The position numbers and the translations under genes are program-made. The notes under the pieces were generated by a model. That model was not told where the DNA came from and did not search any database. It saw only the letters and a list, made by a program, of their open reading frames with translations. From Eubacteriales bacterium (GTDB lineage Bacteria > Bacillota > Clostridia > Lachnospirales > Lachnospiraceae), in the NCBI GenBank assembly GCA_030524545.1, contig JAUNGM010000016.1, forward strand, positions 32,300 through 96,299: a stretch of DNA of 64,000 nt, read 5' to 3'. Positions 8,995 to 11,558 of the stretch are shown in pieces (position 1 is the stretch's first letter; each line of letters starts with the position of its first letter).

Positions 8995-10284
8995 TTATTT
9001 GATTTTATCAAATGCCTGCTCCAGATCTTCGATGATATCATCAATATGCTCCGTACCAATGGAGAGACGGATGGTATTCGGCTTGATTCCCGCTGCAAGC
9101 TGGGCCTCGGTGCTGAGCTGGGCGTGAGTGGTGGTTGCAGGATGAATCACCAGAGATTTCACATCCGCTACATTGGCAAGGAGGGAAAACAGCTCCAGGT
9201 TGTCGATAAACTTCTGCGCTTCTTCCACACCGCCCTTGATCTCAAAGGTAAAGATGGATGCACCTCCGTTCGGGAAGTATCTCTCATACAGAGCATGCTG
9301 CGGATGATCCTGAAGGGACGGATGGTTCACCTTCTCTACAAGCGGATGATCTTTCAGGTAGTCTACAGCTTTCCGTGCATTCTCTGCGTGACGATCCAGA
9401 CGAAGGGAAAGTGTTTCCAGCCCCTGGAGAAGAATGAAGGCATTGAACGGGGAAATCGTAGCGCCTGTGTCACGGAGGAGAATTGCCCGGATATAGGTTA
9501 CAAATGCTGCTGCTCCCACGGCCTTTGTAAAAGAAACACCATGGTAACTCGGGTTCGGCTCTGTAAACTGCGGGAATTTCCCGGAAGCTTCCCAGTCAAA
9601 CTTACCGCTGTCTACAATGACACCGCCGAGAGATGTTCCGTGGCCGCCGATAAATTTGGTTGCGGAATGTACCACAACATCAGCGCCGTGCTCAATCGGA
9701 CGGATCAGGTACGGAGTACCAAAGGTATTGTCAATTACCAGCGGGATCTGATGGCTGTGTGCAATTTCTGCCAGAGCATCAATATCCGGAATATCGGAGT
9801 TTGGATTTCCCAACGTCTCCACATACAGAATCTTTGTATTCGGTAAAATCGCTGCCTTTACTTCTTCCAGATTATGAATATCTACAAACGTTGTGCTGAT
9901 TCCATAATCACGAAGCGTAGCGTCCAGAAGATTATAGCTGCCGCCGTAGATGGTATTCTGTGCTACCACATGATCACCGGCTTTGGCCAGTGCCTGAATC
10001 GTGTAGGTAATGGCTGCCGCTCCGGAAGCTACCGCAAGACCTGCCACACCGCCTTCCAAAGCGGCTACACGATCCTCAAAAACACCCTGGGTAGAGTTTG
10101 TCAGACGTCCGTAAATGTTACCGCCCTCTGCCAGCCCGAAACGTGCTGCTGCCTGTGCGCAGTCTTTAAATACATAAGAAGTTGTCTGATAGATCGGTAC
10201 TGCGCGTGCATCTGTTGCCACATCCGGCTGTTCCTGTCCTACATGAAGCTGTAATGTCTCAAATCTGTAATTTTTCTTTGCCAT
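8995..10284 (-). CDS. metY: O-acetylhomoserine aminocarboxypropyltransferase (sulfhydrylase)
   Basis: A PLP-dependent Cys/Met metabolism enzyme of 429 residues, the usual length for the MetY group. It makes homocysteine from O-acetylhomoserine and sulfide. Landmarks are [15 protein letters not shown], the aspartate that holds the PLP ring nitrogen in [12 protein letters not shown], and the PLP lysine in [16 protein letters not shown]. The [13 protein letters not shown]-terminal motif is complete. The ATG at 10284 follows AGGAT with about nine bases of spacing. It stands behind a leader of about 310 bases with a structured RNA and a poly-cysteine upstream ORF, which suggests control by sulfur amino acid supply. 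A divergent AraC regulator is upstream. Confidence 0.93.
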
Positions 10285-10302: not shown

Positions 10303-10400
10303 ATCCGGAATGTTCCATAAGCCCGGCAGAGTATCTGCTGCCGGATAATCACTTATCCTTTCTATTATTATATATGATCATGAATGTCATTGACTGCCGG
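10303..10400 (-). promoter_or_regulatory. candidate attenuator between the Cys-rich leader ORF and metY
   Basis: On the minus strand CCGGCAG occurs twice (10400-10394 and 10344-10338), followed by a single complement CTGCCGG (10329-10323), so either copy could pair with it but not both. A competing longer stem pairs 10352-10342 (containing ATCCGG) with 10308-10298 (containing CCGGAT), ending just before the metY ribosome binding site. The first copy lies three bases after the leader ORF stop, where a stalled ribosome would mask it. The pairings are visible; the switch itself is inference. No U-run follows, so control of translation is more likely than termination. Confidence 0.5.
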
Positions 10401-10402
10401 TA

Positions 10403-10471
10403 TTATCTGCAGCAGCACATTCGTCCATTCCGAAAATTTTCTCTCAGCAGTTCTTGAAATAAGTGATTCAT
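10403..10471 (-). CDS. 22-residue poly-cysteine leader peptide upstream of metY
   Basis: A short ORF with a perfect ribosome binding site (AGGAGG, five bases before ATG at 10471). The peptide starts MNHLFQELL and ends GRMCCCR; three consecutive TGC codons (10417-10409) lie one codon before the stop TAA at 10405-10403. It is in the 5' leader of metY, 118 bases before the metY start and downstream of a consensus promoter. Tandem codons for a pathway amino acid just before the stop are the hallmark of ribosome-mediated attenuation leaders; poly-cysteine upstream ORFs controlling cysteine genes are known in actinobacteria. Here the peptide probably measures charged tRNA-Cys. It may have no function as a protein. 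Confidence 0.75.
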   Translation of the reverse strand: MNHLFQELLRENFRNGRMCCCR

Positions 10472-10474
10472 GTT

Positions 10475-10598
10475 ATCCTCCTGTGACGGCAATTCCACCT
10501 TACCGGCCCATAGCCTTGCAGCCGGTGCAAGGTTTGGGAGTGAACAGCAACCCTGCGGCTACTCTCTTGCCCTTTATTCATACTTGTTTAGTAGGTAT
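10475..10598 (-). promoter_or_regulatory. structured leader RNA upstream of the Cys-rich leader ORF
   Basis: On the minus strand the RNA can form an outer stem GGCAA (10571-10567)/UUGCC (10492-10488). It also has an inner hairpin CCUUGCA/UGCAAGG, whose loop residues (10525-10521) are complementary to 10507-10503 and could form a pseudoknot, and a partial stem GAGU/ACUC. It ends at the AGGAGG of the leader ORF (10481-10476). I compared it by eye with SAM-I, T-box, cobalamin, FMN, THF and TPP consensus cores and it does not fit any. A ~35-base part recurs at 63905-63940. It looks like a riboswitch-type element, but the class is unidentified. Confidence 0.5.
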
Positions 10599-10604
10599 AT
10601 TGGA

Positions 10605-10633
10605 ATATTACCACTTATTCCCTACTTTGTCAA
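10605..10633 (-). promoter_or_regulatory. promoter of the metY leader
   Basis: TTGACA (10633-10628), a 17-base spacer and TAATAT (10610-10605) on the minus strand give a near-consensus sigma-A promoter. The transcript would begin about 10598 and read the structured element, the leader ORF and metY. Confidence 0.85.
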
Positions 10634-10730
10634 TAGGTATTCTAAAAAGAAAAACTGAATTTTCGGTTGAGAAAATCACCGCATTCCGTTATATTTAATA
10701 CAGATCATGTGGTGCACAGGAGGAAGCCCT

Positions 10731-11558
10731 ATGGAACATTCTTTAGAACCAATGGAAAAGTCCGGATATCTCAATGAGGAATACCGTCTCTTCCACATCA
10801 AAGACCAGACAGAACGCGAATACCATCCCCATTACCACGACTTTCACAAGATCATTGTCTTTCTTTCCGGCAAAGTCACCTATCATATTGAGGGAAAAGC
10901 CTACCACCTGAAGCCCTGGGATATTCTTCTGGTCAACCAGGGAGCCATCCACAAGCCGGAGATCGACACCAGCCTTCCCTATGAGCGCTTTATCCTGTGG
11001 ATCCGGAGTGACATTCACGACCATGAACTGACCACCTGCTTCCAAAAGGCCCGTGACCGCAGCTTCAATCTGATCCGTCTGGACTCCCAGGTACAGGAAC
11101 GCCTGAAAGATATCCTGTCGGAACTGGAAAGCTCTCTCCGGAGCGACGCTTTCTGTTCGGATTTATTAAGCTATGCCCTGTTTTCCCAGCTTATGGTCTA
11201 TGTCAATAGAATTTTTCTGGAGGAAAGCTATATTCTTGACCAGAAATCCTACACCTTCGATTCTCAGATAGAAAGCCTTGTGCGCTACATCAACCATCAC
11301 CTGGACAGAGATTTGTCCATCGACCACCTGGCCCGGAAATATTTTCTCAGCAAATATCATATGATGAGAAAGTTCAAAGAAGAGACCGGTTATACCATGC
11401 ATAATTACATTACCAGCAAGCGTCTGCTTAACGCCCGAGACCTCATCTCTCATGGTACCCCTGTGATGAAAGCAGCTCAGCAGAGCGGATTCAAAGATTA
11501 CACGACCTTTGTACGTGCCTATAAAAAACAATTCGGCGCATCTCCCACCAAAGGGTGA
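10731..11558 (+). CDS. AraC family transcriptional regulator (cupin sensor)
   Basis: A 275-residue regulator. The N-terminal cupin-like arm has a HxHxxxH-like cluster (YHPHYHDFHKI) and SGKVTYHIEGKAYHLKPWDILL. The C-terminal ~95 residues are two AraC helix-turn-helix units (LDRDLSIDHLARKYFLSKYH and AAQQSGFKDYTTFVRAYKKQ). I chose the ATG at 10731 because AGGAGG sits seven bases upstream; an earlier ATG at 10707 lacks a site. It is divergent from metY and could control it or an unlinked pathway. The ligand cannot be predicted. Confidence 0.9.
   Translation: MEHSLEPMEKSGYLNEEYRLFHIKDQTEREYHPHYHDFHKIIVFLSGKVTYHIEGKAYHLKPWDILLVNQGAIHKPEIDTSLPYERFILWIRSDIHDHELTTCFQKARDRSFNLIRLDSQVQERLKDILSELESSLRSDAFCSDLLSYALFSQLMVYVNRIFLEESYILDQKSYTFDSQIESLVRYINHHLDRDLSIDHLARKYFLSKYHMMRKFKEETGYTMHNYITSKRLLNARDLISHGTPVMKAAQQSGFKDYTTFVRAYKKQFGASPTKG

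Follow-up and report, generated by a model that had tools for sequence, protein, structure and literature searches.

The window analysed here, a stretch of 64,000 nt from a Lachnospiraceae genome draft, carries on its minus strand the gene metY, whose product scores 629 bits against TIGR01326 (cut-off 495). A short upstream open reading frame (uORF) precedes metY, with AGGAGG followed by the ATG start codon at 10482-10469 (minus strand) and with CGA ATG TGC TGC TGC AGA TAA as closing codons, giving the peptide end CCCR. This 22-codon ORF with its AGGAGG had been predicted from the sequence and was confirmed, as was the promoter TTGACA-17-TAATAT. The promoter is conserved at L090 (genome G051), whose metY is 93% identical to that of the window and ranks first among the leader-bearing loci compared. 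Two copies of CCGGCAG and one CTGCCGG, said to lie past the uORF stop, were likewise located there (Table 1). The spacer between uORF and metY measures 118 nt and contains a hairpin. The metY leader gave no match to Rfam at gathering score, T-box RF00230 included, and at E<=10 the window gave a single snoRNA match, which was taken as chance.

Table 1. Positions of the elements of the metY leader region in the window
Feature	Position	Strand	Basis or remark
Promoter TTGACA-17-TAATAT	10605..10633	-	read from sequence; kept in L090
CCTATTGACAAAGTAGG, imperfect palindrome resembling an operator, across the -35 box	10621..10637	-	similar by eye in L214, L215, L217
Dispersed repeat between promoter and uORF	10488..10553 (approx.)	-	13 more matches elsewhere in the genome
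Shine-Dalgarno AGGAGG of the uORF	10477..10482	-	read from sequence
Leader peptide uORF MNHLFQELLRENFRNGRMCCCR, 22 codons	10403..10471	-	conserved family
uORF stretch UUUCGGAAUG, codons 13-16, able to pair with 10312-10304	10426..10435	-	
CGA-ATG (Arg17-Met18), proposed pause site	10418..10423	-	CGA near-invariant across leaders
Cys codons TGC TGC TGC, variable tail	10409..10417	-	tail statistics
CCGGCAG, two copies	10400-10394, 10344-10338	-	
CTGCCGG	10329-10323	-	
Partner CAUUCCGGA, 5' of the metY Shine-Dalgarno	10304..10312	-	
metY, O-acetylhomoserine sulfhydrylase	8995..10284	-	TIGR01326 and PF01053

The uORF belongs to a family of conserved leader peptides with the consensus MxxxFxxL[LV]RxN[FYW]RxGRM and the core RxN[FYW]RxGRM, and because its peptide is conserved the uORF stands far beyond chance. 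The first leaders met in the genus were MNRLFEKLLRENFRNGRMC, MNILFRKLLRENFRNGRMCC and MNFLFRKLLRENFRNGRMCNCDRNCCCEES. An exact DNA pattern for ENFRNGRMC proved too strict, its single match in 397 genomes of the family being the window itself, and a profile built from 35 leader peptides was used instead. Named genome records supplied 80 metY loci, the best 80 among the matches listed. Of these, 33 have an RxN[FYW]RxGRM-like leader upstream, seven have a second leader type, M[CW]C..RMxxSRA, and at 40 neither type was recognised.

The profile identified 21 places in 299 Lachnospiraceae genomes at E<=2e-4, with metY as target in 19, a MetQ/NlpA lipoprotein in one (L121) and a nitrogenase-component-1-like protein in one (L116). 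From 391 Clostridia genomes came 39 places in 37 genomes (E<=0.001), comprising the window, 37 leaders and a match in G085 (L131) that sits within a long ORF and was dropped as a leader. The 37 leaders, which include one duplicate (L184 is identical in sequence to the named locus L051), precede metY in 33 cases (called from the gene start, by eye and with tblastn), MetQ/NlpA in two, a sulfate-binding protein in one and a sulfonate-binding protein of the SsuA family in one. Within the genus, nine of 64 genomes had a match at E<=0.01; the confirmed leaders amount to seven places in six genomes, and in the matches L218-L220 the leader motif was not found. Weaker Lachnospiraceae matches start at E 3.9e-4. 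Of the 23 that were read among those listed, L133 (E 0.0019) is a metY leader without the Met codon, and the other 22 were judged by eye to be chance; L135, L136 and L138-L141 were checked by motif pattern only. Three Treponema-titled loci (L046, L080, L086) also carry the leader and a fourth, L061, lacks it; as these loci come from metagenome bins, their host is uncertain. An SD-like site precedes the uORF in 80 of 91 leaders, and the uORF starts exactly nine codons before R10 in 73 of the 91, a set that includes one duplicate.

The conserved positions of the peptide differ in how they are encoded. Across 91 aligned type-A rows, i.e. leaders of the kind found in the window (including the duplicate pair L184/L051), R10 is specified by AGA (39), CGC (15), CGT (14), CGG (12), AGG (6) and CGA (3), with AAA in two rows; all six Arg codons are in use for R14, both Asn codons for N12 and all four Gly codons for G16. 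Judged from this alignment, R10, N12, R14 and G16 are held as amino acids with free codons, which is peptide-level selection. R17, in turn, is under selection as a codon: CGA encodes it in 56 of the 58 first-set leaders, the only count that includes L116, and in all 40 of the second set, where one row is a duplicate. Both exceptions are Treponema-titled loci with CGC. Without the duplicate, CGA occupies R17 in 95 of 97 leaders, and without near-identical leaders in 88 of 90, although these codon counts are not independent events since the leaders are related. With cores less than 70% identical, CGA was found at R17 in 74/74, at R14 in 8/74 and at R10 in 2/74, and it makes up 13 of the 505 Arg codons (2.6%) of metY itself at 40 leader loci. 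Because the searches were made by peptide (three leaders of the genus were first found by DNA), CGA was not selected by the search.

A slow codon at this position would fit a site of ribosomal pausing. The tRNA-Arg genes seen in the draft genome of the window (ARAGORN, 25 of 30 loci, a partial tRNA list) have the anticodons ACG, CCG and CCT, and TCG was not among them. The inosine form of the ACG anticodon reads CGA, and since no TCG was seen, CGA is probably decoded by this form in the genome of the window. A his-leader assay places CGA among the slow Arg codons (PMC4046918). With a near-invariant rare synonymous codon within a conserved peptide, the leader is a clear example from nature of a signal that seems to lie in the choice of codon itself.

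Behind Met18 the leaders vary. In 90 distinct leaders the next codon is TGT (27), TGA (27), TGC (16), CGC (6), TAA (4) or another, so that Cys follows in 43 and a stop in 31. Cys occurs somewhere in the tail of 57 leaders, two have a tail without Cys, and 31 stop immediately without any Cys codon; at least two Cys are found among the first six tail residues in 38 of the 90. Tail positions 1 to 6 hold 117 Cys among 273 residues, and the 16 positions that end with Met18 hold 13 among 1456, both counts including the duplicate row L184/L051. Even within the genus seven different places show the tails CCCR, C, CC, CNCDRNCCCEES, CS, W and C. Due to the 31 immediate stops together with the enrichment in the tails, the Cys run is a real and enriched but optional element of the leader. 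The original prediction had described a poly-Cys leader of metY; the conserved uORF and its Cys-enriched tail bear this out, while the Cys run does not define the leader.

Cys-responsive attenuation by poly-Cys uORFs in mycobacteria was reportedly described by Canestrari in 2020. A 2005 paper describes Cys-run leader peptides without terminators before actinobacterial cys operons (PMC1262725), and another text cites Cys-responsive attenuation via poly-Cys uORFs in mycobacteria (PMC13236596). The leader of the window resembles these uORFs in being short and in having Cys codons near the stop, a sulfur gene downstream and no obvious terminator. The present family differs from them by the RxN[FYW]RxGRM core, the near-invariant CGA, the possibility of Cys-free tails, the metY/metQ-like targets and its occurrence in Clostridia. 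The uORFC-8-2 motif of cysS in Rhodobacterales has tandem Cys codons, as has the window uORF, and is thought to sense tRNA-Cys (PMC8632094); that motif, however, combines an intrinsic terminator with cysS in alphaproteobacteria, whereas the window leader precedes metY and lacks a terminator. The likeness to the actinobacterial leaders, the Cys enrichment given above and the presence of Cys in 57 of the 59 leaders that have a tail would suit a classical Cys-codon sensor, in which the poly-Cys tail stalls ribosomes only on uncharged tRNA-Cys and the upstream peptide is irrelevant. We consider this rather unlikely, as the 31 of 90 leaders that stop directly after Met18 show the same downstream pairing as the others (see below), and as the peptide before the tail is conserved as amino acids and CGA as a codon.

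What recurs downstream of the peptide is a pairing between the uORF mRNA and the ribosome binding site (RBS) of the following gene. It was assessed by a swapped-partner test, comparing the pairing of a leader with its own downstream RBS to that with the RBSs of other leaders. The footprint was set to +6..+45 from R10, so that it starts at N12 and reaches roughly six codons past Met18, and the RBS to -21..+3. For 74 leaders (pairs less than 70% identical, ungapped) the pairing energy was -8.90 kcal/mol with the own RBS and -6.62 kcal/mol after swapping (z -10.2, 0/20,000 permutations), a test that like the later ones was not blind because the footprint had been fixed after inspection of a scan over 208 pairs of windows. 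Harder thinning gave z -8.1 at less than 60% identity (n=42) and z -5.2 at less than 55% (n=27). At the 70, 60 and 55% limits, codons 1-11 against the RBS gave z -0.2, -1.2 and -0.3, and the footprint against metY +6..+30 gave z +1.3, +0.2 and -0.7. The footprint against the spacer at -45..-21 gave z -3.9 at 70%, falling to -1.0 and -0.5 at the stricter limits. The first collection alone yielded z -7.2 (n=47). The second collection, minus leaders matching the first at 70% or more, yielded z -5.7 (n=27, 0/20,000), and its three controls z -0.3, +0.9 and -0.4. Left out of the pairing tests were the terminator-type leaders L014, L034, L044, L117, L123 and L142, L193 with its misplaced gene start, and leaders exceeding the identity limits given above. 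A narrower version with codons 12-16 alone, for which 66 pairs of windows had been scanned, was rejected, since its z of -4.2 in the first set failed to replicate in the second (z -0.5, -1.4).

A scan in 12-nt steps located the strongest signal at +24..+42 (z -5.2, -6.0) and a weaker one at +6..+24 (z -2.6, -3.0), with z values from -1.4 to +1.1 at the remaining positions. A ribosome covers about 15 nt on either side of the P codon, and by this rule the paired stretch corresponds to the footprint of a ribosome on Met18. Pairing was found in both tail classes, with z -6.0 for stop tails (n=23) and z -8.6 for Cys tails (n=50). It is a property of the family and not of every member: the own partner ranked within the best 10% of swaps in 32 of 90 leaders and was worse than the median swap in 24 of 90. 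L057, L210 and L213 are leaders in which the helix is clear. Model folding with the footprint masked raised the unpaired fraction of the RBS modestly, from 0.450 to 0.548 (n=74), compared to 0.471 with codons 1-10 masked and 0.511 with the spacer masked. In most type-A rows 52-118 nt separate Met18 from the start codon, and no terminator was seen in the type-A spacers read. With regard to the conservation in relatives that the original prediction had called for, the peptide family is kept; the Cys run, however, is variable, and the pairing that recurs is that of footprint and RBS.

We propose that the uORF controls metY by translation attenuation, as one member of a clostridial family, and that stalling turns metY on. 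On the basis of the comparisons we regard this as probable, though with modest confidence. A leader ORF with its own RBS is present, and the footprint pairs with the downstream RBS family-wide. The leader mRNA of many members would fold onto the RBS of the gene with a segment that begins near codon 12 and ends some six codons past Met18. A ribosome paused with CGA-AUG in its decoding sites would cover this anti-RBS stretch; the RBS, no longer sequestered by it, would be free, and the gene would be switched on. The rare CGA and the nascent peptide RxN[FYW]RxGR may jointly cause the pause, and a shortage of sulfur amino acids may prolong it. In leaders with a Cys tail, prolongation would result from a lack of charged tRNA-Cys; in those with a stop tail, from slow Met incorporation, slow UGA release or a ligand-dependent arrest. 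While the conserved peptide, the near-invariant CGA, the Cys-rich tails, the self-specific pairing and the sulfur neighbourhood are features read from comparison, we infer the pause, its sign and its signal. Candidates for the signal are tRNA-Cys, Met and peptide arrest, and a response to charged tRNA-Cys is possible. If the model is true, homocysteine synthesis and the uptake of methionine, sulfate and sulfonate are under widespread control of this kind in Clostridia.

For the window itself the support is weaker. Its best footprint pairing lies 5' of the Shine-Dalgarno, at -45 to -18, where UUCGGAAUG meets CAUUCCGGA with -22.4 kcal/mol. With 77 other partners this value was never reached, with 77 other footprints once, and by mononucleotide shuffling in 37 of 2000 cases. 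With the RBS proper the pairing of the window footprint is ordinary (as good in 22/77 and 34/77 swaps), and masking of the footprint leaves the RBS unopened both in the window (0.651 to 0.636) and at L090 (0.451 to 0.451). A repeat lies between promoter and uORF at about 10488-10553. At E<=0.001 it matches 13 additional places of this genome and 11 of G039, another species of the genus, in both orientations, but is absent from L090, where promoter and uORF are as in the window. Being dispersed and missing there, it looks from these comparisons like an insertion and not like a part of the family-wide switch. In the window, the switch may have been changed by the repeat and by the greater length of the spacer.

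The same repeat accounts for the 'structured leader' of the original prediction, which did not hold: this 5' part folds no better than its shuffles (z -0.23, 79/200). The whole leader folds somewhat better than shuffles (z -1.78, 3/100). A T-box or riboswitch in this part, first read from GGUGGAAUUGCCG, was rejected, as Rfam was empty and the stretch is the dispersed repeat. The two CCGGCAG copies and the CTGCCGG had been interpreted as alternative arms of an attenuator-like switch. Such arms could choose between terminator and read-through in a transcription attenuator. Besides the presence of the segments, the folding of 10475-10290, from the uORF onward, which is better than that of most shuffles (z -2.74, 2/200), and the existence elsewhere of relatives with CTCCCGGGCA/TGCCCGGGAG and a U-run would agree with this. 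We nevertheless give it very little probability for the window. The hairpin is not followed by a U-run and is therefore not an intrinsic terminator; L090 has another hairpin at that place, and in L091 and L092, with 55 and 53 nt between uORF and metY, no such hairpin was found by eye. The pairing is thus not conserved.

Leaders of the second type do carry terminators. They retain CGAATG, which follows Cys, Met or Trp codons and is itself followed by CTCCCGGGCA, encoding SRA. Of 299 Lachnospiraceae genomes, 14 contain the pattern CGAATGNNNNNCTCCCGGGCA, and its reversal, run as a control, gave none among the matches listed. A complementary segment GCCCGGGAG lies downstream in 13 of the 14 (L175 has a variant) and is followed by a second CCGG-containing arm and a U-rich run. 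Since CGAATGNNNNNCTCCCGGGCA itself contains CGAATG, the codon is tested only by the seven second-type leaders of the metY set that were found by peptide, all of which have CGAATG (7/7). The genes behind the 14 leaders, named by eye unless family-tested, are metY in nine; amino-acid binding proteins in L163, L170 and L172 (families were run for L163 and L170), with a MetQ/NlpA domain joined to that of L170; in L164 an enzyme similar to O-acetylhomoserine sulfhydrylase but below the TIGR01326 cut-off; and in L175 a short-chain dehydrogenase, with the next frame read by eye as cysteine synthase. CCCGGG-rich segments allow several alternative pairings in these leaders. A ribosome on CGA-AUG may here hide the antiterminator, which would predict a sign opposite to that of the type-A model and speaks against it. 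Terminator-type sulfur attenuators with CGAATG, CTCCCGGGCA and TGCCCGGGAG were recorded at L162-L175, L012, L018, L032, L050, L063, L077 and L082. Hybrids with an NFRC-GRM peptide and a terminator also occur. One of them, L116, precedes the nitrogenase-component-1-like protein (PF00148), possibly a sulfur-related nitrogenase-like reductase.

Taking both types together, we tentatively suggest that the leader is a ribosome arrest peptide devoted to sulfur metabolism: RxN[FYW]RxGR plus CGA before AUG may form an intrinsic pause responsive to sulfur amino acids or to a small molecule related to them, the Cys codons being an optional second sensor. Across Clostridia, the same CGA-AUG module would act on an RBS in type A, to which the window belongs, and on a terminator in type B. 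As in arrest peptides, residues near the last codons are conserved with free codons (R10, N12, R14, G16), R17 being the near-fixed CGA. TnaC, SpeFL and SecM have conserved residues beside the peptidyl-transferase centre, some with a stop codon next; the leader family shares such a placement, with a putative arrest, and we know of no motif that it has in common with them. In erm-type translation attenuators a ribosome stalled on the leader peptide releases a sequestered downstream RBS, as is proposed for the metY leader. Unlike those, the present family involves sulfur genes, no antibiotic, a CGA-AUG site and a variable anti-RBS sequence.

Conservation at the amino-acid level could also reflect a peptide that works in trans, with the pairing incidental, and six such peptides gave no family in Pfam or NCBIfam. 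This appears most improbable, as the leader always lies just 5' of a gene, as the target is sulfur-related in 20 of the 21 clear Lachnospiraceae places and in all 37 Clostridia places, and as CGA and the self-specific pairing indicate a role in cis. Searches of Rfam, Pfam and NCBIfam returned no entry for this control of sulfur genes by a leader. No report of the family was found in the literature searched, a collection without most subscription papers, and the strings NFRFGRM, RENFRNGRM, NFRNGRM and LVRANFRFGRM were absent from its papers.

Some further elements were observed around metY leaders. Upstream of the type-A leaders of L030 and L045 there is another short ORF, in which Met and Cys codons alternate; it could be no more than a simple repeat. 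In L084, a locus of an Erysipelotrichaceae-titled bin, metY is served differently, by a T-box (2203-2437) immediately 5' of it. In the window, a second operator-like palindrome, ACCTACTAAACAAGTATG at 10596-10579, flanks the promoter together with CCTATTGACAAAGTAGG, and similar ones were seen by eye in relatives; the two palindromes suggest a candidate repressor of sulfur genes. The gene at 10734-11558 (+), named by eye as an AraC-like regulator, is transcribed away from metY, and L091 has a similar gene start at the matching position.
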